Of a stretch of DNA of 52,759 nucleotides, positions 3,813 to 48,203 are shown one piece after another. Both the position numbers and the translations under genes were made by a program. The DNA comes from an uncultured Granulosicoccus sp. (GTDB lineage Bacteria; Pseudomonadota; Gammaproteobacteria; Granulosicoccales; Granulosicoccaceae). The stretch's first letter is position 1. Each line of letters opens with the position of its first letter. Location of the stretch: NCBI GenBank assembly GCA_937991945.1, contig CALKLO010000053.1, positions 1 through 52,759 on the forward strand, in the 5' to 3' direction. A model generated the notes under the pieces. It had not been told where the DNA came from and searched no databases. It saw only the letters and a program-made list of their open reading frames with translations.

Positions 3813-3822
3813 GAGACGACAC

Positions 3823-4608
3823 ATGACTGACAAAATGAGCGAAACGATCCTAGAAACCAAAGGCCTCACTAAGCACTACGGTGGAGTTCACGCCCTAAAT
3901 GAAGCCGACTTTGTGCTTCACAAAGGCGAGCACGTGGCCATCATGGGAGACAACGGCGCGGGTAAGTCCACCTTCGTTCGACAAATTACCGGGGTCGAGC
4001 AGCGCACGAGTGGAACGATTACCTTTGATGGTAAAGAGGTGCATTTCGGCGGCCCTATCGACGCACGAGAAGCCGGTATCGAAACAGTATTTCAAACACT
4101 GGCACTAGCCGATGATTTAGATGTTCCCGATAACCTTTTTCTCGGTCGGGAAATAACTAAGTTCGACTGGCTTGGACCTTTTCGCCTACTAGATTACAAA
4201 GCGATGCGAGAAGCCACCATTGAGGGGCTTGAGCGCACGGCTGTAAAAATCCCCAACATACGCAACACCATTCAGAACATGTCCGGTGGTCAGCGACAAT
4301 GCGTTGCGATAGCGCGCACAGCCACTTTTTCATCCAAATTAACCATCATGGATGAGCCAACAGCCGCCCTCGGTGTACAAGAAACTGCACAAGTCGAGAA
4401 TATTATCCGCACTCTAAAAGACAATGGTGAGCCGTTGATTCTCGTTAGTCATAACATGCGACAAGTGTTCGATCTGGTTGATCGTATCATTGTGTTTAGG
4501 CGTGGCCGAATTGTTGCCAACCTCAAGAAAGAAGACACTGACGGACAGGATGTGGTCGCCTACATAACGGGTGCCAAAACTGGCGACGAGTACGCTGGCG
4601 CTGCTTAA
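3823..4608 (+). CDS. Sugar-type ABC transporter ATPase, single-domain form
   Basis: A 261-residue ATPase with Walker A GDNGAGKS, Q-loop region (VFQTLALADDLD), signature MSGGQRQ, Walker [12 protein letters not shown] and H-loop LVSHNM. The VFQTLAL and DEPTAALG forms are typical of the monosaccharide (CUT2) class. CUT2 ATPases such as RbsA and XylG of E. coli carry two ATPase halves of about 500 residues; this one is a single half, so it must act as a homodimer. AGGAG lies 7 bases before the ATG. A second short ATPase of this kind occurs in the xylose cluster (34020-34838). Confidence 0.87.
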   Translation: MTDKMSETILETKGLTKHYGGVHALNEADFVLHKGEHVAIMGDNGAGKSTFVRQITGVEQRTSGTITFDGKEVHFGGPIDAREAGIETVFQTLALADDLDVPDNLFLGREITKFDWLGPFRLLDYKAMREATIEGLERTAVKIPNIRNTIQNMSGGQRQCVAIARTATFSSKLTIMDEPTAALGVQETAQVENIIRTLKDNGEPLILVSHNMRQVFDLVDRIIVFRRGRIVANLKKEDTDGQDVVAYITGAKTGDEYAGAA

Positions 4609-7982: not shown

Positions 7983-9464
7983 ATGATTGATGAAGAGCTC
8001 TACCAGCAAGCCGCCGACGAGCTCAACTCTGATCGTCGCCGAGCACACATCTGGGCACGCGCCTGCGCGCTATCCAAAGATGACCACGATGAGGCCCGAT
8101 ACCTGTACACAAACCTACGGGTAGAAGAGTTGATGGCTGAGCGTGAAGCTGGCATGTCTGCCAATGCGGCGCAAAGCGAGCTAGAAGACGATGTAACGCT
8201 TGGCCTAGAGGACGATGCGCTCGACCTCTCAGCAGACAATGCGACGGGTGAGCTGATGGACGACTACATTGAAGACGCCACACTCAGCTTCCACCACACG
8301 GCTTCGGTATCAGGTGGCCAAAGCGGCGCTGCAGAAAACGACGCATTGATGCAAGAGTTGTCTGAAATCTCACTAGCTAACAAGGAATCCGACGCTGACA
8401 CGCCCGTTAGCTATCAGCGAGTCGAATTTGAACAACGTTTCGATGCTCATGCGAACGGCGAGACACCTGATGCAAACCAGGCGCCTGTGTCGCCTATGGA
8501 AAAAGAGTACTACGAAAAACACCCTGAGCAACTCAGCGATCGCATCGCCCATGGCGACGAAATAGCCATTGAGAGAAACAACGAAGAACTCAACCATTTG
8601 CTCGATGGTGTGCAAACCCCATCGTCAGATGATGATTCAAACGTATCCTTTGCTGACTTCACTGATGCCACTGTCAGCGAGTCTGTACTGGTTGACGACG
8701 AACTAGAATGGCTCGATGGTGAAACGACATCAGAGCAGTCTCAGACACGTCTGCAACGTGTTCCACCGCCACTGCCCGCTCACGATGACACTGACCGATT
8801 CACCCAGGAGCTCCTGCGACAAGCAGACGAGCTACCCGGTCAACACAGCGATATCGTTGCCTCTGACGATAACCCAGTAGAGGACTCTACCTGGGAGCCG
8901 TCACCGCGCGCTAATGTCGCAGCGGTTGGCACAGCTGCCGCTATTGGTGCCGCCCGCTATGGCACTCACGCAGATTCGAACCGTAAGCGTAATACAACCT
9001 CGACTACCCAAAACGGCAAACACACTGGTCTGCCCGTCGATTTAACCGATGGCAAGTCAGGTGCGGAATTTTCTGTCTACCGGCGCGATCAGGCAGTCCA
9101 AGCCGTCAAGAAAGGTGTGTCGTGGTCGGCATTGTTATTCACGCTCCCGTATCTCATTTACCGCCATTTGTTCGGTACTGCCATCGTTTACGCACTCTTG
9201 GCGGTCATCGTGGTAATCGGACTAGTCTTTTCAGGGCTGAATTGGATGGATGCAGGCGCAACTGCCACCACAGCAACCAAAGTCATCACGTTGGGCTTTG
9301 CTCTGTTGGCCGTTATTGGGCTCTTGTACTTACCTTTCCGCCATGGCAACTTTTGGCGCTCAGAAAAGCTTGAACGCAGGGGCTTCGAACTCGTTGCTCA
9401 TGTGAATGCTGCAAGTCCTGGTAGAGCCATCGCACTAGCAAGACGTGCGTCAGCTCTCGACTAG
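7983..9464 (+). CDS. DUF2628-type membrane protein with long acidic N-terminal region
   Basis: A 493-residue protein. Residues 1-60 are helical and charged (ELYQQAADELNSDRRRAHIW). Residues 60 to about 360 are acidic, low-complexity and rich in D, E, S, T, likely disordered. The end resembles DUF2628: EFSVYRRD, then VKKGVSWSALLF, hydrophobic helices (about 380-410 and 425-445), then LPFRHGNFWRSEKLERRGFE. The frame is open upstream, but ATG 7983 fits the domain and avoids overlap with the divergent iolC leader. Function unknown; an envelope-associated role is likely. No strong ribosome binding site is visible. Confidence 0.68.
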   Translation: MIDEELYQQAADELNSDRRRAHIWARACALSKDDHDEARYLYTNLRVEELMAEREAGMSANAAQSELEDDVTLGLEDDALDLSADNATGELMDDYIEDATLSFHHTASVSGGQSGAAENDALMQELSEISLANKESDADTPVSYQRVEFEQRFDAHANGETPDANQAPVSPMEKEYYEKHPEQLSDRIAHGDEIAIERNNEELNHLLDGVQTPSSDDDSNVSFADFTDATVSESVLVDDELEWLDGETTSEQSQTRLQRVPPPLPAHDDTDRFTQELLRQADELPGQHSDIVASDDNPVEDSTWEPSPRANVAAVGTAAAIGAARYGTHADSNRKRNTTSTTQNGKHTGLPVDLTDGKSGAEFSVYRRDQAVQAVKKGVSWSALLFTLPYLIYRHLFGTAIVYALLAVIVVIGLVFSGLNWMDAGATATTATKVITLGFALLAVIGLLYLPFRHGNFWRSEKLERRGFELVAHVNAASPGRAIALARRASALD

Positions 9465-9643
9465 TTCGGTTACAAGCCGCATTTTTCATCCATAAACGGA
9501 TCAACTGCGCATTACCCAGCGGTTGGAGTACAGATAAGCCTCTCAGGCGTCGTTAAGCAATACAAGTCATCGACAAGAATGACGGCGCTGTTAGTGTTTA
9601 ACGTCACTGCGGCATGTCACTGAATAGTCAGCGGCATTTGGGG

Positions 9644-9672
9644 GTTGCCGGGAAAGGGATTTTCCCGGCAAC
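9644..9672. terminator. Hairpin between convergent genes
   Basis: Perfect 12-base inverted repeat (9644-9655 with 9661-9672, 5-base loop), GC-rich, 12 bases beyond the matB stop and about 180 bases beyond the DUF2628 gene stop. There is no clear T-run on either strand, so efficiency is uncertain. Confidence 0.6.
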
Positions 9673-9684
9673 AAATTATGGCCC

Positions 9685-11202
9685 CTAACTCAATTGCTCC
9701 CGCAACTTGTTCTTCTGAACCTTACCCATCGTATTGCGCGGCAACTCATCCGCAAAATGAACTGCACGCGGCTGCTTAAAACGAGCTAATTTCGTACTGA
9801 GTGAGCCTATAACGCTCTCTTGCGTTAGAGCATCTGCTGCCTGTGACCCATCTCTAATGACCACCGCCAGCACAGACTCACCAAAGTCCGCATCGGGCAC
9901 GCCGATAACAGCCGACTCAAGTACCCCAGGTATGTCGTCAACAAGCAACTCAAGCTCTTTAGGGTAGATGTTGTAACCACCTGAAATGATGAGATCTTTG
10001 GAGCGTCCAACAATAGTGATATAGCCTTGAGCATCGATGGTCGCTAAATCGCCTGTAATAAAGAAACCGTCTTCGAGAAGCTCTTCACGGGTTTTCTCAG
10101 GCATCTGCCAGTAACCGGCAAATACGTTGGGTCCCCTGACTTGAAGCATACCGACCTCGCCTACAGCAACCGTTTGTTGTGTATCGGGGTCAACTAAGCG
10201 AACGTCAACACCGGGCAATGCAAAGCCCACTGTACCTGCACGCCGCTCGCCCTCGTAAGGGTTTGAGGTATTCATATTGGTTTCTGTCATGCCGTAGCGT
10301 TCGAGAATTTTCTTACCCGTGCGTTCTTCGAAATCTCTGTGCGTTTCAGCCAATAACGGCGCGCTACCTGAGATAAACAAACGCATGTGCTTGGCAGCTT
10401 GCTCGGTAAATCGCGAATCAGCTAACAAGCGCGTGTAAAACGTCGGTACACCCATCAAGCTCGTTGCCGCAGGCATAGCGTCAAGCAAGGCATCAACCGA
10501 GAAACCCGCTTGGAATATAATGCGCCCGCCAGAGAGCAGCATAATGTTGGATGCAACGAATAATCCGTGCGTATGGAAAATGGGTAGCGCATGAAGCAAT
10601 ACATCGTCAGCGGTAAATTGCCAATATTCGAGTAGGGCTTGGGAGTTGGATAGTAGGTTCCCGTGTGTGAGCATTGCGCCTTTGGAACGACCGGTCGTGC
10701 CCGACGTATACAAGATGGCCGCTAAATCAGATGCTTCGCGCGACACAGCCCCGCTCATCTCGTTAGCCGTTGATGCTGCCGCACCCAAGCTGCCGCCACC
10801 CGAGTCATCAAGCGTTAAGAGTCTTTCGGCCGGTATTAAACGCTCACCAATGTCCTGCTTAGCAGGGTCCATGATAAGCAGTTGAGGCGTCGCATCCCCG
10901 ATGAAGTACGCTAGCTCAGCCTCGGTGTATGCCGTATTAAGTGGTAAAAAAACAGCCCCCACTCGCAAGCAGGCAATATAGACAGCCAGCGCCTCAATGC
11001 TTTTGGGTATCTGAACAGCAACCCGATCACCCGGTGAGACGGACGCATTGGTAAATACAGTGGCAATTCGTGCTGTCAGGCTAAAAAACGTCTTGTCATC
11101 AACGACTGAGGCAACTTCATTGTCTGCCGTATTATGAACGAAGAGCTGACCGTTCCCTGCTTGCCTGCCGTCCCAAAGAGCGTCAAACAAGCAGTTACTC
11201 AT
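9685..11202 (-). CDS. matB: Malonyl-CoA synthetase (malonate-CoA ligase)
   Basis: A 505-residue acyl-adenylate-forming enzyme. The AMP-binding P-loop ILYTSGTTGRSKGAML, the core ERYGMTET, and the C-terminal hinge/lysine region (ITIVGRSKDLIISGGYNIYP; catalytic Lys in NTMGKVQKNK) are all present. Length and pairing with malonyl-CoA decarboxylase identify MatB, which converts malonate, ATP and CoA to malonyl-CoA. Its ATG overlaps the upstream decarboxylase stop by 4 bases (ATGA). No malonate carrier (MatC) or MatR regulator lies beside it, so malonate entry must be served elsewhere, or the substrate comes from internal metabolism. Confidence 0.9.
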   Translation of the reverse strand: MSNCLFDALWDGRQAGNGQLFVHNTADNEVASVVDDKTFFSLTARIATVFTNASVSPGDRVAVQIPKSIEALAVYIACLRVGAVFLPLNTAYTEAELAYFIGDATPQLLIMDPAKQDIGERLIPAERLLTLDDSGGGSLGAAASTANEMSGAVSREASDLAAILYTSGTTGRSKGAMLTHGNLLSNSQALLEYWQFTADDVLLHALPIFHTHGLFVASNIMLLSGGRIIFQAGFSVDALLDAMPAATSLMGVPTFYTRLLADSRFTEQAAKHMRLFISGSAPLLAETHRDFEERTGKKILERYGMTETNMNTSNPYEGERRAGTVGFALPGVDVRLVDPDTQQTVAVGEVGMLQVRGPNVFAGYWQMPEKTREELLEDGFFITGDLATIDAQGYITIVGRSKDLIISGGYNIYPKELELLVDDIPGVLESAVIGVPDADFGESVLAVVIRDGSQAADALTQESVIGSLSTKLARFKQPRAVHFADELPRNTMGKVQKNKLREQLS

Positions 11203-12551
11203 GAGGCGCGTTTCCTCTGTCGACGATTGCGCTCAAGCAATGTGCTGACTTCAGCCGAATGTATGACCGTTTGATTGTTTGCATATGCTTCGTGGTTATC
11301 TTCTACCTTGTCCAGATTATATAGATAACTCACCATAGCGCTAGAGGACTGTGCAAGACCTTTCTTGGATACGTCTGCAGCAGGTATCACTGAATCCAGG
11401 CTAGCACCATTGCCTAAATGAAAGCGTGCCACCGGATCCACTGGCAAATCATCTACCCGTTTCGCATTAACTAAAAAATGAGCGACGGTGACTCGGAGTT
11501 GTTCACTCTCGTGGGCATTGATCTCCAGTTCATCTGATTCGGACACACGACGGGCTATGTGTAAGCCAGCCTGTAGATTGTCCACCGACGCAGTAGGTTC
11601 ATTACTGGCACCGCCTGAATCAAGCGATTTAGTCACCCAACGCATAAACCCTGGAACCGGCGACAGCGTTCTGAACGTCTCAAGGTTTGGCAACTGCCGT
11701 GATAATTCCTTGGCCACCTGTTTAATTAAAAAATTACCAAACGACACGCCTGCAAGGCCACGCTGACAATTAGAAATTGAGTAGAAGACAGCCATGGTTG
11801 CATCATCCTCAGCAATAAGCTGTCGATCTTGTTCAAGCACCTCACGAATACTATTCGGGCTGTTTTTTGTTAAAGCCACTTCGACAAATATCAAAGGCTC
11901 ATCAAGCATGGCTGGATGAAAAAACGCAAAGCAACGTCTATCGATAGGTTCTAAGCGACTGCGAAGCTCTCGCCAGTTACTAATTTCATGTACCGCTTCG
12001 TAAGCTATGATTTTTTCAAGAACGTTAGCTGGTGTGTGCCAATCGATTTCTCGCAGCACCAAAAATCCTTGGTTAAACCACGCTCGAAACAAACGTTGGA
12101 AATCTACATCAATGCATTTAAGCTCAGGATACTCCTTACAAAATGTGAGTAACGATGCGCGCATTTGCACTAACTCGTTAGTCGCACCAGGCACACGGTT
12201 TAAACGCCGTAACAGTTCTTGTCGTTTAGGTTCGACACTGTCCATCAGTATCGATAAATTCAAGTCGCTTTTATCTTGCGCATAGCGTTGCGCCGCTCGC
12301 ACCGCGTGCTCAGCATTGATATCGAAACGCTCTGCCAACATGCGAAAGAAACTCAGTTTCTCAGACTCATCAGACGAACGGAATTTACTGAGTAATCCGC
12401 GTGCTAAACGATTTCCAGACATCTCTCCGCTTTGCGATAGCAAGGCATCACAAAGCTCGGCGAACGGTCGATTTTCCTCAAACCCTGGCCGCTGCTCTTC
12501 CCGAGCAAAAACCGAACTCAGTAGCTCGGATAAATAACTAATACGACTCAC
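11199..12551 (-). CDS. matA: Malonyl-CoA decarboxylase
   Basis: A 450-residue protein of the MCD family, with helical N-terminal half and the catalytic GNAT-like half containing FFHPAMLDEPLIFVEVAL, the FYSISNCQRGLAGVSFGNFL block and SPVPGFMRWV, all hallmarks of the family. It turns malonyl-CoA into acetyl-CoA. I chose the GTG at 12551 (VSRISYLSELL), preceded by AGGGA, because family members start close to this motif; a TTG at 12590 with AGGG upstream is the alternative. Together with matB it gives a two-gene malonate-to-acetyl-CoA operon with coupled translation. Confidence 0.88.
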   Translation of the reverse strand: MSRISYLSELLSSVFAREEQRPGFEENRPFAELCDALLSQSGEMSGNRLARGLLSKFRSSDESEKLSFFRMLAERFDINAEHAVRAAQRYAQDKSDLNLSILMDSVEPKRQELLRRLNRVPGATNELVQMRASLLTFCKEYPELKCIDVDFQRLFRAWFNQGFLVLREIDWHTPANVLEKIIAYEAVHEISNWRELRSRLEPIDRRCFAFFHPAMLDEPLIFVEVALTKNSPNSIREVLEQDRQLIAEDDATMAVFYSISNCQRGLAGVSFGNFLIKQVAKELSRQLPNLETFRTLSPVPGFMRWVTKSLDSGGASNEPTASVDNLQAGLHIARRVSESDELEINAHESEQLRVTVAHFLVNAKRVDDLPVDPVARFHLGNGASLDSVIPAADVSKKGLAQSSSAMVSYLYNLDKVEDNHEAYANNQTVIHSAEVSTLLERNRRQRKRAS

Positions 12552-37526: not shown

Positions 37527-38759
37527 ATGAGCGGTTCCCCGATAAGACGAAGCGATGATTTACGCGGCGAAAACCGCAAACGCATACTGGAGACACTGCG
37601 CTCACAAGGGGCCTGTACGCCCGCTTCTCTGCGTGATATCACAGGTCTAAGCGCCGCCTCAGTCTCGACACTGTCCTCGCAATTAATCGATCAAGGTATT
37701 TTGCGGAGCGAAAAAGACCCCGAATCGGCCCGCAAAACTGGACGCGGGCGACCCAAAACGCGGCTTTCCTTAAACTCGGAGGCAGGTTTTACCATCACCG
37801 TTAACATCACCATTGATCACATAGAATTTCAGCGGGTCAATTACAGCGGTGAAGTTTGTCAGTCTCGTGGCGTAACCTTAGATTCCCGAGCCTTAAGCAC
37901 TGAGCAACTTTTCTCTACCGTTATTGAAACCATTGATTCGATATGTTCTGACGAGCAGAAAAAACGGCTTTTTCACATAGCCGTAGCGTTTCAAGGCGTA
38001 ACCGAGCACGCAACCGGCACCCTACTTTGGTCACCCATTTTGCAATTGCAAAACGTACCCTTAGGTCAATCACTGGAGCAACGCTACGGTGTCCGTGTCA
38101 GCGTTGAAAACGACTGCCAGTTAATGACGGAGGCCTTAAGTGCCAAAAACCAAGACACACTAGGGCAATCTTTTGCCACCGTACTTTTTTCTGACGGCAT
38201 CGGTTTGGGTATCTCCTTAGGTGGCCGTCCATTTTCAGGCATTCGTTCGTCGGCACTCGAATTGGGGCATATGAAATTTGAAAGGAACGGTGCGCTGTGT
38301 CGCTGCGGCAAGTTAGGCTGTATTGAAGCCTACGCTGCCAACTACGGTATTGAGCGAATGGCTCAAGGCGATTCCATCTCTGATGTACCAATGGGGCGCG
38401 TCTCTGCACAGGCATTAGAAGCATTGGTTGAACGAGCGTTGGCGGGTGATACACCGGCAGTTCAAGCTTTTGCTATAGCCGGTGCTGCAGTGGCTGAGGG
38501 ACTGGTTAATCTGTTTACGTTGCTCGACCCCATGCCCGTTGCGTTAATTGGCCATGATGACCGAGCGTTCGATTTGATGCGGGGCGGTATCGACTCTGTG
38601 TTTAAACAAAGCCTAGACGATGAAATTAGCGCTTCTCGTCCGCTCCACTATTTTAATAACGAAGATGAACTTCTCGAATTCGGATTGATTCAAAGTAGCC
38701 TACGCAACCTTGATTTACTGTTCTCCGACCCAGGAGTGGACATAGAAGCTGCCTCATGA
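37527..38759 (+). CDS. xylR: ROK-family transcriptional regulator, XylR type
   Basis: A 410-residue ROK protein. The N-terminal winged helix-turn-helix (NRKRILETLRSQGACTPASL, then TGLSAASVSTLSSQL) is followed by the sugar-kinase-like domain with ENDCQLMTEAL, DGIGLGISLGG, ELGHM and the zinc motif CRCGKLGCIEAYA. Such regulators sense xylose directly. The ATG at 37527 puts the HTH about 15 residues in; an upstream ATG at 37473 lacks support. It probably represses xylF and its own operon via 37432-37453. Its stop overlaps the di-heme gene start by 4 bases. Confidence 0.87.
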   Translation: MSGSPIRRSDDLRGENRKRILETLRSQGACTPASLRDITGLSAASVSTLSSQLIDQGILRSEKDPESARKTGRGRPKTRLSLNSEAGFTITVNITIDHIEFQRVNYSGEVCQSRGVTLDSRALSTEQLFSTVIETIDSICSDEQKKRLFHIAVAFQGVTEHATGTLLWSPILQLQNVPLGQSLEQRYGVRVSVENDCQLMTEALSAKNQDTLGQSFATVLFSDGIGLGISLGGRPFSGIRSSALELGHMKFERNGALCRCGKLGCIEAYAANYGIERMAQGDSISDVPMGRVSAQALEALVERALAGDTPAVQAFAIAGAAVAEGLVNLFTLLDPMPVALIGHDDRAFDLMRGGIDSVFKQSLDDEISASRPLHYFNNEDELLEFGLIQSSLRNLDLLFSDPGVDIEAAS

Positions 38760-40177
38760 TTACAACCAATGTACCTACCCAGCTTGGGTTGCTTCTGTGC
38801 TGTTTGCTCAGCACCACGCTTAGCGCCAGCGAAGACCCCTGGTCTGAAAAAGCTATAAAAAATTCTGTTAATGCTTCCGACTATCAAGGCACTCTGGAGC
38901 GGAATCAACTCCTAGAACTAATAGAAGCTGGCAATCAATTGTTCAGTGCACGGTTTACTACGGATGATGGTGTCGGTCGTCCTATGGCCACGCAAGCCAT
39001 CATTCCCACCAAACGTAAACGACCACCGCGCAACGAATTTTCACGCACGGCAGGATTAGATGCGAACGCTTGCTCGAGCTGTCACAACGTCCCAATTATT
39101 GGCGGTGCGGGTGACTTTTCCGTTAACGTGTTTGTCTCCGAAGGTTTTCAGCACTCTGACTTCGATACAACCGATCCGCAGTTTTCCAACGAAAGAAACA
39201 CCAATCACTTATTTGGGTCTGGCGTTGTAGAATTACTCGCAAGAGAAATGAGTGTGACGCTCATGCAGCAACGCACACAGGCGTTGGCAGACGCTAAGAA
39301 TCAAAACAAACCAGTCATTCAAGCCTTAAATGCCAAGGGTGTTGATTTCGGATCCATCACTGCTCACCCCGATGGTCGTATCGATACCGCAAACATCAGC
39401 GGTGTGGACAATGATCTTGTTATCCGCCCGTTCAGTCATAAAGGTGTCATGACATCGCTACGACAGTTCACGGTTAATGCACTGAACCATCACCACGGCA
39501 TGCAAGCTACAGAACGTTTCGGCACACGCTGGACCGACACAGATGACTACGACGAAGACGGCATAGCGCAAGAGATCAGCGCCGGTGATGTCTCGGCCCT
39601 TGTGGCATGGCAAGCAAGCCTTGCCCCTCCATTAGCGCAAGCCCCAACGGATACACGTTGGCTAGAAGCGGCTAAACAAGGTCAACAACAGTTCGACTCT
39701 ATAGGGTGTGCCGATTGTCACCGGACTTACCTCCCCCTAAGCGATTTAGCCTTTTCAGACCCAGGCCCTATGGATGCAGCAGGTACCCTACGCTATGGCG
39801 AGACCCCCAACACCGTCTATGACTTGAGCCTCCTTGCATGGGCAGAGACGTTGGAGAAAGACACCAACGGGGACTATAAAATCCCGTTGTTTGGCGATCT
39901 TAAACGTCACGTCATTGCTGATCAACAAGTCGCAGCACTGGGCAATGAATTGTTATCGCAACGCTTTGTAGAGCGCAATGTGTTTATGACAACCGAGCTT
40001 TGGGGAGTCGGTTCTACCGCCCCCTATGGTCACCGAGGAGATATGACAACCCTTCGAGAAGTTATCAATGCACACGGCGGTGATGCAAGAGACTCAAGAG
40101 ATGCATGGAAAGCATTGCCAAAAGATGCGCAAAACAATCTTATTGCTTGGCTCAAAACACTCATTATCAAGCTATGA
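38756..40177 (+). CDS. Di-heme oxidoreductase (DUF1111, di-heme thiol oxidoreductase family)
   Basis: A 473-residue exported cytochrome c with signal peptide (about 1-24) and two heme-binding motifs, CSSCH (106-110) and CADCH (318-322). The spacing and the blocks RTAGLDANACSSCH, LFGSGVVELLA, RPFSHKG and TTELWGVGSTAPYGHRGDM are those of the DHOR/DUF1111 family, relatives of bacterial cytochrome c peroxidases. Electron partners and substrate are unknown. Members are also found in iron-regulated loci with imelysin proteins; none is present here. It is coupled by ATGA overlaps to both the ROK regulator and the CRTAC1 gene. Confidence 0.85.
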   Translation: MITTNVPTQLGLLLCCLLSTTLSASEDPWSEKAIKNSVNASDYQGTLERNQLLELIEAGNQLFSARFTTDDGVGRPMATQAIIPTKRKRPPRNEFSRTAGLDANACSSCHNVPIIGGAGDFSVNVFVSEGFQHSDFDTTDPQFSNERNTNHLFGSGVVELLAREMSVTLMQQRTQALADAKNQNKPVIQALNAKGVDFGSITAHPDGRIDTANISGVDNDLVIRPFSHKGVMTSLRQFTVNALNHHHGMQATERFGTRWTDTDDYDEDGIAQEISAGDVSALVAWQASLAPPLAQAPTDTRWLEAAKQGQQQFDSIGCADCHRTYLPLSDLAFSDPGPMDAAGTLRYGETPNTVYDLSLLAWAETLEKDTNGDYKIPLFGDLKRHVIADQQVAALGNELLSQRFVERNVFMTTELWGVGSTAPYGHRGDMTTLREVINAHGGDARDSRDAWKALPKDAQNNLIAWLKTLIIKL

Positions 40178-41859
40178 AATTGCTTAATCGTAAATTAGTG
40201 GGGCTACTGTTACCGTTTTTCGCCGTCAGCATAGTCAACGCTGACACCCACAGTGAGACTGGCAATTACAAAGGCGATGTACCCTCGCTACATGAGCAAG
40301 CCATGGAAGCAGGCATCGTTCACCAATACGACGGGCCCTGGGAATACTTTGTAGGCGGTGGCGTCAGTGCATTTGATTGCAATCAAGATCGAATGCCAGA
40401 CTTGTATTTTTCAGGGGGTGACAATGCAGCCGGTCTCTACATCAACGAAAGTTTACCAGGTGGCGAGCTACGCTTTAATAAAGATACAACCTCAGCGCTA
40501 TCCATAAAAAACGTCATCGGTAGCTATCCCATTGATATAGACAATGATGGCTACTTAGATCTAGCCGTACTTCGCGTAGGCGAAAACTACTTATACAAAG
40601 GTGGCCCTAACTGCGAATTTACGCGCGCCAATTCGCGTTGGAATTTCAGCGGAGGCAGCCACTGGAGTACAGCCTTTAGTGCAACATTTGAAACCGACAA
40701 CGATTTCCCGACACTGGCTATTGGAAACTACGTCGATCGTACAGCGCCTGGCTCGCCGTGGGGAACCTGTCAGGATAACGAGTTGCACCGACCCAATGCT
40801 ATCGGTGAGACACCAGACTTCAGCGAACCACTGCCGTTGTCACCCGGTTATTGCGCGCTTTCTATCGTCTTTACCGACTGGAATAAATCGGGTGTCGATG
40901 CACTTCGCGTCACCAATGATCGCCACTACTATCGAGGTGGACAAGAACAACTTTGGCGACTAAACAGTGGCCGATACCCAAGGCTGTACTCGGCATCTGA
41001 AGGATGGGAGCCGTTAGTTATTTGGGGCATGGGCATCGCTGAAGCTGATTTGAACGCTGACGGATATCCCGAATACGCACTAACGTCCATGGGTGATACC
41101 AAGCTACAAATACTTGACCTTGAGCAAGCCATTGACGAGAACAGGCCGCATTACGAGGACATGGCTTGGACACGCGGCGCCACCGCACATCGCCCCTATA
41201 CCGGTAACGATCTAAAACCGAGTACAGGCTGGCATGCACAGTTTGAAGACATCAATAATGACAGTCATCTGGATTTGTTCATCACCAAAGGCAATGTTGA
41301 ACGCATGACCGATTTTGCCCAGTTTGACCCCGATAATTTACTCATGGGATCAGCCAGTGGTCAGTTCAGCGAACAAGGTTCCGCTGCTGGCCTGGCGTTG
41401 GATACGCGTGGACGCGGTGCCAGCGTCATGGACCTAAACGCCGATGGCCTCCTCGATGTCGTTGTCGTTAACCGAGCTGACAACGTTAGCGTTTTTCGCA
41501 ATCAAGGCATGAATAGCGAACACGGTCCCAGACAAGGCGGTAATTGGCTTAAAATCGAATTGCAACAAAAAGGCGGTAACAGGCACGCCGTGGGTTCAAA
41601 GCTTTCAATTAAGACAGGCAACACAGTGCAAAGCCGTGTTACGCGTGTTGGCGCTGGACATGCGTCAGGCAGCGCAGGATTCATTCACGTAGGCCTGGGT
41701 GTCGCTGAAAGAGCAACCGTACGTGTGCAATGGCCAGATGGTGAATGGAGCGCACCGTACAAGCTCTTTGCTAATCATCACGTAGTCATAGAACGAGACA
41801 ACGACACCGTTAGTCAATGGTTCCCAACAACTACTTCATTACAGACAAATTCGGAATAA
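40174..41859 (+). CDS. CRTAC1-type FG-GAP/VCBS repeat protein with ASPIC/UnbV domain
   Basis: A 561-residue exported protein (signal about 1-23, ending VNADT). Calcium-binding type repeats are spaced through it: FDCNQDRMPDLYFSGG, IDIDNDGYLDLAVL, ADLNADGYPEYALTS, EDINNDSHLDLFITKG, MDLNADGLLDVVVVN, forming a beta-propeller. The end (GNWLKIELQQKGGNRHAVGS, then RVQWPDGEWS) is the ASPIC/UnbV domain. The ATG overlaps the di-heme stop by 4 bases. A role as outer surface or periplasmic binding partner of the di-heme protein is inferred from the coupling. Confidence 0.86.
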   Translation: MKLLNRKLVGLLLPFFAVSIVNADTHSETGNYKGDVPSLHEQAMEAGIVHQYDGPWEYFVGGGVSAFDCNQDRMPDLYFSGGDNAAGLYINESLPGGELRFNKDTTSALSIKNVIGSYPIDIDNDGYLDLAVLRVGENYLYKGGPNCEFTRANSRWNFSGGSHWSTAFSATFETDNDFPTLAIGNYVDRTAPGSPWGTCQDNELHRPNAIGETPDFSEPLPLSPGYCALSIVFTDWNKSGVDALRVTNDRHYYRGGQEQLWRLNSGRYPRLYSASEGWEPLVIWGMGIAEADLNADGYPEYALTSMGDTKLQILDLEQAIDENRPHYEDMAWTRGATAHRPYTGNDLKPSTGWHAQFEDINNDSHLDLFITKGNVERMTDFAQFDPDNLLMGSASGQFSEQGSAAGLALDTRGRGASVMDLNADGLLDVVVVNRADNVSVFRNQGMNSEHGPRQGGNWLKIELQQKGGNRHAVGSKLSIKTGNTVQSRVTRVGAGHASGSAGFIHVGLGVAERATVRVQWPDGEWSAPYKLFANHHVVIERDNDTVSQWFPTTTSLQTNSE

Positions 41860-43318: not shown

Positions 43319-43828
43319 CTACTGAGCGTTAACTATAGACTCGAGCATGGAGCGTTCAATTTTGCCTGCTCGAGTGCCTGCCAGTTGGCCATCGGGCGAA
43401 AACAGTAGATAGGTAGGCGTTGCCCTGAAAGGTTTGTCAGTTAATTCTTTAAACTGGCGATGAAAAACATCAGTAAAAACCACTAAGTTGGGATAACTAG
43501 GCTGGTGATGGTCGACTAGCTCTTGTATGCCTTCTTGGTTTTCCATTCCGTCCAGAGCGATGCCTACGACTTTTGCATTACTGGTGTGATGGCTCTGATG
43601 AAACGCTTCTATCATCGGTTTTTGTTCTTCGCACGGGATGCAGTCAGTCGACCAGAACATCACTAAGGTCCAAGTGCCATCACCGACGTAGTCGAGTAAG
43701 TTTACTCGGCTTTTATCCAGTGCTTGCAACTGAAACGCATGAGCCGCCCCCATACTCAAACACAAAGCGATGGTTGTTCCGATGATTGCTTGCTTTACCC
43801 GTTGTCGAGTAATCAGAACAAAGCTCAT
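43319..43828 (-). CDS. TlpA-like exported thioredoxin-fold protein
   Basis: A 169-residue protein with signal peptide (about 1-31, ending GAAHA-F) and a redoxin/TlpA fold; the active site is WSTDCIPCEEQKP (CxxC = CIPC). The cis-Pro is in FRATPTYLLF. It should act in the periplasm as a reductant or disulfide exchanger. It lies 4 bases after the stop of the OmpA-like lipoprotein gene, so they form one operon; the lipoproteins in this block carry a conserved Cys pair that could be its target. The stop is 4 bases from the convergent xylB stop. Confidence 0.83.
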   Translation of the reverse strand: MSFVLITRQRVKQAIIGTTIALCLSMGAAHAFQLQALDKSRVNLLDYVGDGTWTLVMFWSTDCIPCEEQKPMIEAFHQSHHTSNAKVVGIALDGMENQEGIQELVDHHQPSYPNLVVFTDVFHRQFKELTDKPFRATPTYLLFSPDGQLAGTRAGKIERSMLESIVNAQ

Positions 43829-43832
43829 AATG

Positions 43833-44870
43833 TCAGGTCCGTCTATTAAGGGTTAGCACAACGCCACGTCGAGGCAGTGTGTTGCCGGTACTATCGCCTG
43901 CCCAGCAACCTTCGTCAAGAATCTTGTCAGGGTCAATGCCTGCAAACAATAGCGCCTCGGACACTCGACTGGCTCGTCCCAACGCCAAAGCGGCATTTCC
44001 ACTGCTGAGTGCTGTTGGTCCTAGCGAGCAACCGAGCACTGAAAAAATATCTGTTTCGGGATTAAATGTAGAGACCACTGAATATATGATTTGCTTGTTA
44101 ACCTCCCCAAGGCGTAAAGAATCATTGGGGAAAGTTAGGATTCGCTCAACCAAAGTTGTGTGGTTGGACAATGCATCCGAGTAATTCGAGCCTCCAAGTT
44201 CGAAAACGTTCCTTACGCTTGGCAATGCGACGAGCGGTAAGGATTTTCGTTGTTGCGGGCTTTCACCCCTAGCCCACGCCGACAATGGATTCGCATCATC
44301 AGGAACGCTTAAGATTGACTCGCGTGTGGAAGGTACCGCAACTACTTGTGTAAACACAGCATCATTGAGCACCACGTGAGTTGCATCGGCACCGCGAATA
44401 TACAGCGGCGTCACTGGCATGACATCAGCCGCACTATCACCCACGTAAGTGCGGCGTAGTTCCACGTGACCTACGGCAATTTCAAATCGCTGTCGGACCA
44501 TGGCCTCATTTCCATCTTCAATGACTCGGCGGTATTGAAACAGGTTGTCATTAAGTTGACCATCGATCCATCGAACAGCAAAACCAGCACGCTTAACTTC
44601 ATCATGAAATGCTGCAGTAAAATCGTCGCCCTGATCAGTCCTCAAGAACTGCACAGTGCTGGATGCCGGTGCATGCGTCGGAATTTGTTTTAGCGCATTA
44701 ACAAAATCGGCAGTAATTTTATTCGTAGCGCCAATACTTTTAGAATGAGTTAACGCATCATCAAGAGGAGGCGGCACGCTGTCGTCTGATCTAATGGCGG
44801 TACACGCAGACATACCTACTGAACACACCAGACAAAGAAACACCTTAGACATCATTCGATTATTCAGCAT
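43833..44870 (-). CDS. OmpA-like lipoprotein, paralogue 1
   Basis: A 345-residue protein with lipobox GMSAC after a short signal, a middle domain (AGFAVRWIDGQ ... IAVGHVELRRTYVGD) and a C-terminal OmpA/MotB-like domain (GNAALALGRASRVSEALL). The usual TD of the peptidoglycan-binding loop reads GCSLGPT here, while the Arg in LGRAS is retained. Cys281 and Cys322 (EGCW) are 41 residues apart, as in paralogue 2. ATG at 44870 is favoured; two later ATGs exist (44855, 44852). It faces paralogue 2 across a 200-base divergent promoter region. Confidence 0.78.
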   Translation of the reverse strand: MLNNRMMSKVFLCLVCSVGMSACTAIRSDDSVPPPLDDALTHSKSIGATNKITADFVNALKQIPTHAPASSTVQFLRTDQGDDFTAAFHDEVKRAGFAVRWIDGQLNDNLFQYRRVIEDGNEAMVRQRFEIAVGHVELRRTYVGDSAADVMPVTPLYIRGADATHVVLNDAVFTQVVAVPSTRESILSVPDDANPLSAWARGESPQQRKSLPLVALPSVRNVFELGGSNYSDALSNHTTLVERILTFPNDSLRLGEVNKQIIYSVVSTFNPETDIFSVLGCSLGPTALSSGNAALALGRASRVSEALLFAGIDPDKILDEGCWAGDSTGNTLPRRGVVLTLNRRT

Positions 44871-45071
44871 AGCTAGCGCTCGTTGTGTGATGTCTCTATT
44901 GACATTAATTGCAGGCAATAGCGTCAGTATATCGACGCCTTGTGCGTGCTTATCGTGTTGGATTTCACGTTTGTCACTGAAACGTCAAACAATTAGCTAT
45001 GATCGGCGAACTGTCATTGAATGGAAACTAGGCAAACTGTGATGCACCCATTTTTTAGGAGCACAAATACA

Positions 45072-46121
45072 ATGTGGCGAACGAAACTATCGCGCCTCTG
45101 CTTGTTGAGTACATTAACCGTACTTGGCGCATGTTCAACGTTTAGTGGCGGTTCAAATGTCGGCCAGGTGCTAAGCCGAGGTGGTAACACCGCAGAACTG
45201 TCTAGCATTGATCGCACAATGATTGAAGACTTAGCAGGCATTGTCTCCCAGATATACGATCCGCTAAACACCACTTTACAAACAAGCGCGAATAACACAG
45301 ACCCATCGCTGCAGTATTTCATGTCACTGTTTGGCGACAACGGTTTTGGTATTCAACGAGTCAGCGCCGACCAAGGCGCCAATTTTGTAACGTATACCCG
45401 TAAGGCTGGAGCCAATTCTGACGTGACGTTTTCGGTTGACGTCGGTTCTGTATCGGTCGCCAGAGACTATCTCGTGGTTAAGAGAAAAATGGTTGAGCCC
45501 ATTAGCATGTTTAAGCTATCGGGCACTCGAGCACCGGTGACGGTTACCGACCTTGCATCCAATCGCAAACGACTCGGTGACCCAGATCTATCGCAGGCGC
45601 AATACGTTGCCTCTTTAGGGCTCGATGAGCAAGCTCCTGTCATTTCGTTAATTACCCCTGAGCTTGTGCAAAAAATTGCGGCTAGACGTATTAACGGACC
45701 CACATTGCAGGCTTTAAATTCGAGCAAAATAGAAGTCAACAATCTGTTCTATGGTGACAATTCAACATTCTCGTCGGTACTGGACGACTACGAAAAAGTA
45801 CATAAGCAAGTTATCGTCTTCGGTAACGATTCCATGGTCTTGGGTAAAAACAACAAATCGTTAATTGATCAGTTTGTTGAAAGTCGCCTGCAACAAGGTG
45901 ACATCGTTAGCCTTATTGGTTGTAGTAACGGCCCTACCTCGTTAGAGATAGGCAATGAGGGTCTTGCGTTAGGTCGCGCCAATCGCGTCACTCAGGCTCT
46001 TTTGTCACGAGGTGTTGCTCGCGAAAAAGTATTAGATGAAGGTTGCTGGGCACCGGTGAATGCAGGAGACCGATTTCCCAATCGTGGCGTTGTCTTAGAA
46101 CTGTGGCGGAGAAACGCATGA
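45072..46121 (+). CDS. OmpA-like lipoprotein, paralogue 2
   Basis: A 349-residue lipoprotein (lipobox LGAC, Cys21). The middle domain carries NGFGIQRVSADQGANFVTYT and VDVGSVSVARDYLVV; the C-terminal OmpA-like domain reads VIVFGNDSMVLGKNNKSLID, LIGCSNGPTSLEIGNEGLAL, GRANRVTQALLSRGV. Cys284 and Cys325 form the conserved pair. The frame extends upstream to 45021, but AGGAG (45057-45061) supports the ATG at 45072. The canonical Asp of the peptidoglycan-binding loop is replaced by Ser/Asn, so diaminopimelate binding is doubtful. The stop overlaps paralogue 3 by 4 bases. Confidence 0.8.
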   Translation: MWRTKLSRLCLLSTLTVLGACSTFSGGSNVGQVLSRGGNTAELSSIDRTMIEDLAGIVSQIYDPLNTTLQTSANNTDPSLQYFMSLFGDNGFGIQRVSADQGANFVTYTRKAGANSDVTFSVDVGSVSVARDYLVVKRKMVEPISMFKLSGTRAPVTVTDLASNRKRLGDPDLSQAQYVASLGLDEQAPVISLITPELVQKIAARRINGPTLQALNSSKIEVNNLFYGDNSTFSSVLDDYEKVHKQVIVFGNDSMVLGKNNKSLIDQFVESRLQQGDIVSLIGCSNGPTSLEIGNEGLALGRANRVTQALLSRGVAREKVLDEGCWAPVNAGDRFPNRGVVLELWRRNA

Positions 46122-47185
46122 TTAACGTCACACGTTCTGCGCGAACGTTTGCAGTGGCCACTTTGGTCGCAAGCCTTAGCGGTTGTGGCATCGGTAAAGA
46201 CTCAACCGGTGTTAGCGTTCAATCACTGCTGCCACGAATTGCCTCCACCCCAGATGTATTGACAGACATCAGTGCACAACAACGATCCCATCTACAACTC
46301 ATCGCGACTAACTTGGTGGCCACACTGGTTCAGATCCCTGAGATGCGGCCCGCCGCTGCCACACTTCAAATTAGTGCACCGACAACCAGTTTTGGTCATG
46401 CGCTAATCAGAGCAATGGAAGATGCAGGTTTTGGACTGCAGCTCGTCAGTGCAGATCAGGGCATAAATTACGTGTCCTATAGCAAGCGCGTTTCAGAAAC
46501 AGAGTCTGGCCCTGTTACGGACTATATGCTGGCGGTCGGCAAAATTGATTTATCTCGTGAGTACATTGTTGAGAACAACTCAGTATTCCCTTCATCGCTG
46601 ATGAAAATCAACGGCACCGATTCGATTGCCGATATTGATCTAGCCGATAATATTTTTGCTGAGCAAGGTGGCGACAACACGGCCTTTATTAGTGGTGCTC
46701 AACGTACCGGATTAGCCAACCCTAATTTGGACATAAAGACGGTGGACGTCAATGATTTCGATGAGCTGCCACAAGATAAACGTACGCGCCAAGATCTCGT
46801 GTTCGCGGAAGCCAAACAGCGTTATTTTGAATCTGATGCACAGCAAACTGCGCCCGATCTAACGCGCTATAGAAAGCATCGACGTACGGTATTGATCTTT
46901 GATGACAACGCCACTCAGATGATGGGACCTGCCAACAAGCAAGCCGTGCGTCTACTCATTCGTGAATTCAGTGACGACGACATCATGATTATTAAAGGTT
47001 GCCAGGATGCAGATGGGTCGGACCGCCCCTCTATGCTGCGCGCTATACGAGTTGAAGAGGAACTTGTCGGACACGGCATTCCAACTGGATCAGCATACAT
47101 AGCGCCTTGCGCTCGAACTAGCTACCGCCACACTTCCGATGACTCGCCCACGCCGGTCGAACTTATTCACTACACGCCGAAATAA
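46118..47185 (+). CDS. OmpA-like lipoprotein, paralogue 3 (divergent)
   Basis: A 355-residue lipoprotein (lipobox LSGC) with the shared middle domain (AGFGLQLVSADQGINYVSYS; LAVGKIDLSREYIVE). The C-terminal OmpA-like domain (VLIFDDNATQMMGPANKQAV, then KGCQDADGSDRPSML and RAIRVEEEL) keeps Asp residues in the loop but has Cys295 and Cys331 with 36-residue spacing. It lacks the NRGVVLELWRR ending seen in the other two. Start ATG overlaps the upstream stop. The three proteins may form a hetero-oligomer in the outer membrane. Confidence 0.76.
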   Translation: MINVTRSARTFAVATLVASLSGCGIGKDSTGVSVQSLLPRIASTPDVLTDISAQQRSHLQLIATNLVATLVQIPEMRPAAATLQISAPTTSFGHALIRAMEDAGFGLQLVSADQGINYVSYSKRVSETESGPVTDYMLAVGKIDLSREYIVENNSVFPSSLMKINGTDSIADIDLADNIFAEQGGDNTAFISGAQRTGLANPNLDIKTVDVNDFDELPQDKRTRQDLVFAEAKQRYFESDAQQTAPDLTRYRKHRRTVLIFDDNATQMMGPANKQAVRLLIREFSDDDIMIIKGCQDADGSDRPSMLRAIRVEEELVGHGIPTGSAYIAPCARTSYRHTSDDSPTPVELIHYTPK

Positions 47186-47186
47186 C

Positions 47187-48203
47187 ATGAAACCAATCAG
47201 ACTCATGAAAACGCTATCGATTCTGTTGGCATCAGCCTTGTCCCTACCCGTCTCAGCAGACACCGTGGACGACGTCATTGACCGAGGTGCTCTGCGCTGT
47301 GGTGTCAATCAGCAACTAACAGGCTTCGCTCGCGCGAACAGTTTAGGCGAGTACAGTGGTTTCGATGTTGATGTGTGCCGCGCTGTAGCGACCGCTGTAT
47401 TCAACGACCCGGAAGCGGTAGAGATGTTTCCAGTATCTGCCGGTGAACGATTTGCAGCTCTGGAAACGGGAGCTATCGATATCCTGTCACGCAACACGAC
47501 ATGGACTCTGGAAAGAAACGCATTTTACGGCAGTTTTGTCGGTGTTAATTTCTATGATGGTCAAGGTTTCATGGTGCAGAAGCGTAGCGGTATACGCAGC
47601 GCTCTCGAACTCGACAATCAACCGATATGCGTTAGCCGAGACACCACCTCAGAACTCAACGCTGCCGATTTTTTCACCGTAAGCGATTTACGCTACCGCC
47701 CAGTCTTCTTCGATGACCAATCAGAAGCCGCCCTGGGGTATGTAAACGGCAAATGCAAAGCTATCACCACCGACCGTTCAGCATTAGCGGCGACACGCAC
47801 AACGTTCGATCAACCTGATGCTCATGTAGTGTTGCCTGAAGTTATCTCCAAAGAACCTCTTGGGCCTATGGTTGCGCACAACGATAGCCAATGGGAAAAC
47901 ATTGTCCGTTGGACACTCAACTGTATGATTAACGCAGAGGAACTCGGTGTAAGCAGCCAGAACGTGACCCAGCGAGGCATAGGCTCCACACCTGCCATTC
48001 GTCGCCTGCTAGGCACTGAGGGCGCTACCGGTGAGATATTGGGCCTACACCCACAGTGGTGCAGCCGAGTCGTCTTGCAGGTGGGTAACTACGGTGAGAT
48101 TTACGACAGACACATTGGCCCTGATACCCCAGTTGGGTTAGAGCGAGGCATCAATGAGTTGTGGACCAATGGCGGTTTGATTTACGCACCCCCTATTCGT
48201 TAG
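47187..48203 (+). CDS. AapJ-like periplasmic amino-acid-binding protein without transporter partners
   Basis: A 338-residue protein with signal peptide (ending LPVSA-D) and the pattern of AapJ/BztA general amino-acid binding proteins: RGALRCGVNQQLTGFA, YSGFDVDVCRAVATAVF, RFAALETGAIDILSRNTTWT, and YDGQGFMV. The ligand residues around RNTTWT look intact. The ATG is 1 base after the stop of lipoprotein 3. No aapQMP permease/ATPase genes follow, so it may serve a distant transporter, or act as a sensor for the lipoprotein assembly. Confidence 0.83.
   Translation: MKPIRLMKTLSILLASALSLPVSADTVDDVIDRGALRCGVNQQLTGFARANSLGEYSGFDVDVCRAVATAVFNDPEAVEMFPVSAGERFAALETGAIDILSRNTTWTLERNAFYGSFVGVNFYDGQGFMVQKRSGIRSALELDNQPICVSRDTTSELNAADFFTVSDLRYRPVFFDDQSEAALGYVNGKCKAITTDRSALAATRTTFDQPDAHVVLPEVISKEPLGPMVAHNDSQWENIVRWTLNCMINAEELGVSSQNVTQRGIGSTPAIRRLLGTEGATGEILGLHPQWCSRVVLQVGNYGEIYDRHIGPDTPVGLERGINELWTNGGLIYAPPIR

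Follow-up and report, generated by a model that had tools for sequence, protein, structure and literature searches.

In P-type conjugation systems (IncP/RP4), TrbH is the VirB7-class core lipoprotein (PMC12624023). A TrbH domain (Pfam, 6.3e-11) is also found in a protein of plasmid pHSL3 (Tardibacter), where it is joined to SPOR (3.1e-5) and encoded between trbG and the TrbI/VirB10 gene. SPOR is a wall-binding domain type. The OmpA/Pal/YfiB proteins carry peptidoglycan-binding domains, and in A. baumannii OmpA the residues Asp271 and Arg286 hold diaminopimelate (PMC10385648). Here we analysed a window (the whole stretch of 52,759 nucleotides) from an uncultured Granulosicoccus sp., in which three lipoproteins (LP1, LP2 and LP3) appear to combine a TrbH-like domain with an OmpA-like domain and are encoded together with a TlpA/ResA-type oxidoreductase and an AapJ-type solute-binding protein (SBP). 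In an open-access literature library, we found no description of a TrbH, OmpA and lipoprotein combination, TrbH appearing in a reference list only, and nothing on this unit for Granulosicoccus lipoproteins; open-access searches on an orphan binding protein with OmpA and on Granulosicoccus with type III secretion also found nothing.

Table 1 Features of the lipoprotein array and its neighbours in the window.
Feature	Position	Strand	Remarks
TlpA/ResA-type periplasmic thiol-disulfide oxidoreductase (TlpA)	43319..43828	-	apparent signal peptide; CIPC; cis-Pro in ATPTY
LP1, lipoprotein with predicted TrbH and OmpA-like domains	43833..44918	-	ORF; likely ATG start 44870
Gap between the divergent groups LP1-TlpA and LP2-LP3-SBP	44871..45020	.	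presumed promoters, from gene orientation
LP2 (pair member A), lipoprotein	45021..46121	+	lipid Cys is residue 38
TrbH-like domain of LP2	45192..45554	+	model pLDDT 89.9, folded alone
OmpA-like domain of LP2	45759..46118	+	predicted fold
Cys301 of LP2	45921-45923	+	immediately before the TD place
Cys342 of LP2	46044-46046	+	41 residues past Cys301
LP3 (pair member B), lipoprotein with predicted TrbH-like and OmpA-like domains	46118..47185	+	loop Asp present; Cys spacing 36
AapJ-type family-3 solute-binding protein (SBP)	47187..48203	+	apparent signal peptide; RNTTWT present; without permease

All five genes listed in a preliminary description of this DNA are present as described. The CxxC periplasmic protein that it placed in the operon of the first paralogue lies 4 bases past LP1, both on the minus strand. 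The stop codon of LP2 overlaps the likely start of LP3 at 46118 (ATGA), and the single base said to separate the third paralogue from the binding protein was confirmed (LP3 end, 47185; likely SBP ATG, 47187), with no permease-cluster gene within three genes of the SBP. The lipobox Cys was found in each of the three lipoproteins, and their proposed paralogy is borne out by pairwise comparison (LP1 and LP2, 30%, E 1e-35; LP2 and LP3, E 5e-15; LP1 and LP3, E 3e-13).

The middle domain had been left without a name, and an HHpred-type profile comparison now places it in the TrbH/VirB7 type. The alignment with TrbH (hhalign 97.0%, E 8.2e-11) spans nearly all of mature TrbH, matches from the lipid Cys onward and includes common Gly, Tyr, VG...R.Y and Pro places; by sequence profile, then, the domain is a distant homologue of the TrbH of P-type conjugation, a VirB7-class lipoprotein. 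In the reverse search, the lipoprotein profile picked TrbH at L083, flanked by Pfam CagX (TrbG/VirB9 class) and TrbI genes, and at L147, adjoining a CagX gene. With NCBIfam NF010409 (TrbH), 10 of 31 members matched at E ≤ 0.01, all weakly, and the NF010457 scores of LP1, LP2 and LP3 (20.6, 13.8 and 22.1 bits) were below the curated 160. Nothing in the genome of the window, the three lipoproteins included, matched the Pfam TrbH model PF07283 at E ≤ 1, and the cut-off of this model was passed, with pieces summed, by one lipoprotein in 48 genomes, the solo copy at G005:C128. The case for TrbH homology is thus carried by the profile–profile comparison, the weak NCBIfam matches and the reverse search, which agree. 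Unlike TrbH itself, the lipoproteins add an OmpA-like domain and have no trbG or trbI neighbours among the nine genes scanned with Pfam; the pHSL3 protein differs from them in having SPOR at the place of the OmpA-like domain. No solved TrbH relative was clear by sequence, the best match (E 0.095) being an unrelated protein. Foldseek gave nothing at E ≤ 0.001 for the predicted TrbH domain (best LptE, E 1.9e-3, TM 0.29), and VIA-align reached a Z of 5.2 at most, so that no fold is claimed for it despite its good model pLDDT.

A sequence search barely sees the C-terminal OmpA-like domain of the preliminary description: with Pfam OmpA (PF00691), LP2 scored 14.8 bits against a cut-off of 27.2 (E 0.038), and LP1 and LP3 had no match at E ≤ 1. 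The predicted structure of LP2, however, aligned by VIA-align with 9uu2 (Z 13.3, rmsd 3.1, 105 residues) and 3td5 (Z 12.8, rmsd 3.6, 107 residues), and on this model the domain is OmpA-like; LP1 and LP3 are assigned the fold by homology. About 70 residues link it to the TrbH domain, and this linker, being of low confidence in the model, is probably flexible and makes the relative placing of the two domains low-confidence as well. The Asp of the TD loop was said to be replaced in two paralogues, and it is L in LP1 and N in LP2, with Asp retained in LP3. Among 102 two-domain relatives, solo and paired, the loop Asp occurs in 22 and the binding Arg place in 100; the predicted OmpA-like fold and the conserved Arg place resemble those of the OmpA/Pal/YfiB domains, whereas the scarcity of the Asp, an invariant Cys pair and the extra predicted TrbH domain set the lipoproteins apart. 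The reported Cys spacings of 41, 41 and 36 are correct and follow a family-wide rule (41 in 78, 36 in 23 and 42 in one of the 102), and exactly two Cys, with no third, are present in the C-terminal domain of 101 of the 102. The fold is an ordinary one, but the two Cys keep constant positions throughout the family, so that the case named as counter-evidence in the preliminary description, an ordinary OmpA domain with unrelated Cys positions, is not what is seen. The two strand ends that bear them are presumably neighbours in the OmpA-like fold. Since the pair is as invariant in solo lipoproteins and in the eight arrays without TlpA other than L123 as it is near TlpA, a structural disulfide fits. 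For a YfiBNR-type unit, neither YfiR nor the GGDEF protein YfiN was found among the nine window genes (Pfam) or at the other loci (by eye).

Full-length relatives of the lipoproteins were confined to Granulosicoccaceae among the genomes searched. A class-level search of 369 genomes gave full-length matches in three, all of the same genus, and a phylum-level search of 398 genomes gave them in the genome of the window only; the remaining matches were to one domain, and weak relatives may have been missed at both levels because at most five candidates were scored per genome. At the order level (48 genomes, all of one family), 36 matched at E ≤ 0.001, some of them weakly or over one domain. No phage family matched any of the three window lipoproteins. 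In the tree, A and B lipoproteins form separate clades, with two of the 30 B rows (L057 and L127) being long, weakly placed branches (93/20), and LP1 falls in a nine-row clade close to the solo lipoproteins and looks like a later recruit to the array. The third lipoprotein of L041 (G021:C39:7524-8582) is real and is missing from the array ORF set and the tree, and L048 has two, with no third in the 48-genome profile search.

The gene neighbourhood was surveyed at 53 lipoprotein loci (the window together with L040-L079 and L117-L130; the later L131-L146 and L165-L166 are outside this set), six of which lie at the end of their fetched stretch; gene calls at compared loci are longest-ORF guesses. 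In 21 of the 31 arrays an SBP gene follows B in the same orientation, directly in 15 and with TlpA between in six, and this order holds in every SBP-bearing array (21/21). LP3-type proteins always adjoin a second lipoprotein, which is of the LP2 type in most arrays; in L057, L058, L070, L119, L120, L122 and L127 the partner of B falls outside the A clade, and none of these has an adjacent SBP. The pair and the SBP stay together across differing gene contexts, with and without TlpA, and recur at 21 loci in Granulosicoccaceae; these represent fewer independent events because many of the genomes are close relatives. The recurrence is beyond chance, and the lipoprotein pair with its binding protein is a real unit. 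An adjacent SBP is absent from ten of the 31 arrays, and none of the 22 solo lipoproteins has an SBP or TlpA partner, suggesting that the lipoproteins have other jobs as well. The proposed co-occurrence holds from the side of the SBP, whose clade was seen only beside lipoprotein arrays; the lipoproteins are not tied to it, as 32 of 53 loci have none adjacent, so that the counter-case named in the preliminary description, homologues without a neighbouring binding protein, is borne out in half.

The window SBP scored 45.7 bits with Pfam SBP_bac_3 (cut-off 26.4) and is similar over its full length to its nearest solved relative, the Brucella amino-acid-binding protein 4z9n (E 1.8e-101), with the motif and cysteines retained. 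In contrast to that AapJ type, the array SBPs form a clade apart from permease-linked AapJ (support 97/94), and a permease cluster adjoins 0 of 21 of them versus 9 of 9 others, the permease identity being confirmed by Pfam in L111. The orphan status claimed earlier is supported, and the SBP is of a dedicated kind. The RNTTWT motif of the permease-linked relatives, which we take to contact the ligand, is present in 19 of the 21, that of the window included, and the best 19 SBP matches in the 48 genomes are exactly these 19. In L123 and L124 the motif is lost while the SBP still adjoins the lipoprotein pair, an arrangement easier to reconcile with a structural role than with the sensing of a ligand.

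The window TlpA (Pfam AhpC-TSA, 2.2e-12) is thioredoxin-like, with the CxxC and cis-Pro place of TlpA/ResA oxidoreductases, but does not reach the curated score of either named model, TlpA or ResA. TlpA accompanies 22 of the 31 arrays, and all 22 of these relatives keep the CxxC and the Pro place and share a CxxCExxKP motif, which distinguishes them from the TlpA/ResA proteins. In G023, G030 and G038, the TlpA closest to that of the window occupies a related locus that has no lipoproteins; two of these genomes, G023 and G030, carry the pair and SBP elsewhere. Members of the family that have no array can likewise encode TlpA relatives; the one at L162 lies beside TamA-type Omp85 and heme A synthase genes. 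TlpA is separable from the arrays.

Our tentative reading is that the unit may be a dock in the outer membrane that faces the wall and receives its own dedicated periplasmic binding protein, for use in sensing or capture. The lipid anchors and TrbH domains would come together on the inner side of the outer membrane, in the way of VirB7-class lipoproteins in secretion cores, and the OmpA-like domains would extend to the cell wall, where binding is predicted to be altered in A, which has lost the Asp but retains the Arg, and partly retained in B. The Cys pair would form a structural disulfide that stiffens the modified pocket. With an amino-acid-type ligand enclosed, the SBP would dock onto the lipoprotein assembly, and the unit could then report or capture the ligand near the outer membrane; TlpA, a non-obligatory part, would see to the correct redox state of the unit's periplasmic thiols. 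By eye, no recurring inner-membrane signalling partner was seen adjoining the unit, so that an output for sensing is missing. We are more doubtful that duplicated conjugation-core lipoproteins fused to altered wall-binding domains make up a non-secretory complex with the SBP as its soluble subunit, acting as a ligand-gated or ligand-reporting assembly in the outer membrane; our searches turned up no counterpart of such a complex. If the unit does work as a dock, lipoproteins of secretion cores would have found a second use as an outer-membrane receptor platform, and a binding protein of the periplasm would have shifted from uptake to a scaffold-bound role. The 102 two-domain relatives, with the wall-binding Asp mostly lost and the Cys pair fixed, form a natural series in which the role of the pair is testable.

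The orphan SBP might instead aid uptake through an AapJ-linked permease encoded elsewhere, the lipoproteins only tethering it close to the outer membrane and raising capture. ArgT and HisJ share one permease, and the genome of the window has a separate AapJ accompanied by an ATPase gene and two permease genes, with genes of these same clusters next to AapJ in five further genomes; the motif in most array SBPs also agrees with uptake. We nevertheless think this unlikely, given that no array SBP lies beside a permease, that two lost the motif yet stayed in the unit, and that the permease has its own AapJ, making a second redundant unless its specificity differs. In the reading of the preliminary description, TlpA would change the redox state of the Cys pair and thereby govern lipoprotein assembly in response to ligand. 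The intact active sites, the link to most arrays and the two near-invariant Cys are compatible with such a switch, as is the A lipoprotein of L123, which lacks the first Cys and has no adjoining TlpA, whereas the retention of the pair in solo lipoproteins and TlpA-less arrays and the TlpA relatives of array-less genomes speak against it. Redox control therefore looks improbable, and of the earlier interpretation the paralogy, fold, loop, orphan SBP and lipoprotein–SBP coupling stand. That the genes are neighbours merely by descent, with no joint function, is least credible: the genomes include many close relatives and the window-type order has further conserved neighbours such as xylB, but the pair and SBP stay together while flanking genes change, and array SBPs, A and B lipoproteins each form their own clades.

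The arrays could also be a stripped-down or specialised secretion core built on TrbH-domain lipoproteins, a trans-envelope machine for which the VirB7 class of TrbH (PMC12624023) would be a precedent; we regard this as unlikely, though not as much so as the redox switch. TrbI had no match in the genome of the window, which is 97% complete, the SctT family is limited there to a high-scoring place on C66 and a weak adjoining fragment, and none of the Pfam-named genes adjoining the window array is a secretion gene. Across the 48 genomes, most SctT-family places, including all 21 high-scoring ones, have no TrbH-domain gene nearby. On the other side, the solo lipoprotein in the genome of the window is flanked by short proteins with matches to SctC (E 9.8e-7) and to SctD (E 9.9e-8) that stay below the curated cut-offs; the SctC-like neighbour has a match in L060 and none in the relative in L062. 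Five places, spread over four genomes, have a TrbH-domain gene no more than 3 kb from an SctT/FliR-family gene, and in two of these stretches there are YscJ, T3SS-type ATPase, FliP and SctT-family genes, families common to flagella that the models used do not separate from type III. A rough chance estimate for the link is 4e-8, from five of 14 lower-scoring SctT-family places taken as non-flagellar by score alone (the partial G046:C73 and G008:C647 left out). Lipoproteins of the TrbH type near type III export genes are a second, independent lead within the same bacterial family.

Five genes make up the unit, namely those of a CxxC periplasmic thiol-disulfide oxidoreductase (TlpA), three lipoproteins (LP1, LP2 and LP3) and an AapJ-type family-3 binding protein (SBP), and the positions given for them in the preliminary description were all confirmed, as was the 1-base spacing between the third lipoprotein and the SBP. 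The contig of the window, C53, belongs to a genome of 3.83 Mb that is 97% complete, and the six named relatives are Granulosicoccus or Granulosicoccaceae. At 38756-41859 of the window, a di-haem protein (DHOR, weakly MauG/MbnH-like) adjoins an FG-GAP/UnbV_ASPIC protein, and they are kept next to the array in close relatives.

Genes of the window unit, and TrbH-domain lipoproteins located directly behind or close to SctT-family genes in type III export clusters of other Granulosicoccaceae
Feature	Location	Positions	Strand	Remark
TlpA	window	43319-43828	-	
LP1	window	43833-44918	-	
LP2	window	45021-46121	+	overlaps LP3 by ATGA
LP3	window	46118-47185	+	
SBP	window	47187-48203	+	start one base past LP3 end
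TrbH-domain lipoprotein	L132 (G019:C129)	9211-10041		
TrbH-domain lipoprotein	L131 (G007:C112)	3359-3910		
TrbH-domain lipoprotein	L067 (G033:C20)	10271-11455		

The claimed paralogy of the three lipoproteins was borne out by sequence comparison and their OmpA-like C-terminal domain by the predicted fold, in which the linker (mature residues 142-209) has low confidence. Pfam is almost blind to these proteins, and the NCBIfam TrbH model matches all three weakly, far below its cut-off (E = 0.00035 for LP1, 0.043 for LP2 and 0.00012 for LP3). The profile-profile check of the middle domain was positive: 31 members of the lipoprotein family aligned with seven TrbH proteins at 97.0% and E = 8.2e-11, over 116 columns beginning at the lipid Cys. 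The relation is distant, because nothing in the genome of the window matches the Pfam TrbH model PF07283 at E <= 1, and the model exceeds its cut-off in just one of 48 genomes, at a single (solo) lipoprotein. A table of a 2025 review (PMC12624023) gives TrbH alongside VirB7 as the RP4 core lipoprotein of the outer membrane. The reverse search with the family profile recovered short lipoproteins in other bacteria, one flanked by a CagX (TrbG class) gene and a TrbI gene (L083) and another placed after a CagX gene (L147); a further locus (L149) was assessed by eye.

At five places in four genomes of Granulosicoccaceae, a TrbH-domain gene and an SctT-family gene lie no more than 3 kb apart. At L131 and L132, in two genomes, a TrbH-only lipoprotein is at most 0.2 kb from such a gene, and at L067, in a third, a two-domain lipoprotein lies 1.1 kb beyond one; L132 and L067 contain YscJ, T3SS-type ATPase, FliP and SctT-family genes. 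The genome of the window has four secretin matches, no TrbI match, and SctT-family matches confined to contig C66; a single full SctT-family gene was seen in the whole genome. Its fourth lipoprotein is a solo copy on contig C55. In this stretch (L060, 9447-11992) the lipoprotein is followed by two adjoining short proteins: one matches SctC, in the N-terminal part of the latter (E = 9.8e-7), and the other the SctD C-terminus (E = 9.9e-8), both below the curated cut-offs; one possible interpretation is a stripped-down ring.

Because the survey loci were picked by lipoprotein matches, the survey tells what accompanies the lipoproteins. Two or three adjacent lipoprotein genes (an array) were found at 31 of 53 loci and one at the other 22. 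Both SBP and TlpA were near 17 arrays, SBP only near four, TlpA only near five and neither near five, and no solo locus (0/22) had an SBP or TlpA beside it. The suggested co-occurrence with an AapJ-like gene thus holds for 21 of the 31 arrays, but not for the other 10 or for any solo locus. The pairing is conserved: in 21/21 SBP-bearing arrays the order on one strand is LP2-type (A), LP3-type (B), SBP, with the SBP immediately after B in 15 and TlpA in between in six. In the window-type arrangement, TlpA adjoins LP1 on the opposite strand.

A tree of 102 lipoprotein sequences contains a B group (30 rows, support 100/98) and an A group (23 rows, 98/89), every row of both coming from an array. 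The LP1-type forms a 9-row group (100/100) nested among solo copies, and its members were found only in genomes closely related to that of the window. Seven arrays have B preceding a partner from outside the A group, and none of them (0/7) has an adjacent SBP.

The SBPs of arrays form a dedicated clade. When the SBP was searched against the 48 genomes, the top 19 places (427-805 bits) were the array SBPs that retain the RNTTWT motif intact, all 19 of them and no others, followed by the permease-linked AapJ of the window's own genome (411 bits), and one branch (97/94) of a 30-sequence tree parts 21 array SBPs from nine permease-linked ones. The two array SBPs that have lost RNTTWT (L123 and L124; 19/21 retain it) sit on very long branches. 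L123 (G002:C244, 6904-10354) is a degenerate unit, with Ser replacing the first Cys of one lipoprotein. Six Cys are conserved in 21/21 array SBPs; these are not special to the unit, because four of them also occur in 9/9 permease-linked SBPs and two in 5/9.

The TlpA motif is intact, the CxxC and the Pro place being conserved in 22/22 array-linked relatives. Nevertheless, nine arrays have no TlpA, and two of the genomes concerned (G023 and G030) have the TlpA closest to that of the window elsewhere, adjoining relatives of genes which, in other genomes, border arrays with TlpA. The core is thus the lipoprotein pair with the SBP, often accompanied by TlpA. TlpA also occurs without arrays in other family members, and at L162 it lies near the genes for a TamA-type Omp85 protein and for heme A synthase.

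The lipoprotein Cys pair is nearly invariant. Among 102 two-domain members the first Cys is present in 101 and the second in all, 101 have exactly two Cys within the OmpA-like domain, and the spacing is 41 (78 members), 36 (23) or 42 (1). The preliminary description had suggested, as a possibility, a redox-controlled outer-membrane assembly coupled to ligand sensing; in that reading TlpA would toggle this pair between oxidised and reduced states. In its favour, the lack of an adjacent TlpA at L123 coincides with loss of the first Cys in A and of the SBP motif, although a single case cannot decide. Such a switch is improbable, as the pair is invariant in solo copies and kept in 8/9 arrays without TlpA; instead, the two Cys would form a structural disulfide. 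A 198-residue lipoprotein at L136 (G037:C204, 8215-8811) carries the Cys-pair OmpA-like domain without a TrbH-domain match.

A profile alignment with MotY places the first Cys immediately ahead of the residues that match TD of the peptidoglycan-binding loop. The Asp place holds H in 24, N in 23, D in 22 and L in nine of the 102 members, with others in the rest, and the partner Arg is present in 100. Given these places, and since Asp271 and Arg286 of A. baumannii OmpA contact diaminopimelate (PMC10385648), the predicted wall binding is probably altered in LP1 and LP2, and LP3 would retain part of it. The PxRGV-type stretch at the C-terminus of LP1 and LP2 is missing from LP3.

The lipoproteins may assemble at the outer membrane via the TrbH domain, with the OmpA-like domain contacting the wall and the SBP docking on them. 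Every part of the unit belongs to a known kind; the TrbH-OmpA architecture with its fixed Cys pair, partnered with a dedicated SBP, had no counterpart in the open-access literature searched. The TrbH-SPOR protein of plasmid pHSL3 parallels the lipoproteins in joining a TrbH domain to a wall-binding-type domain, and this fusion (L097, 523-1272) is flanked by trbG and a TrbI/VirB10 gene.
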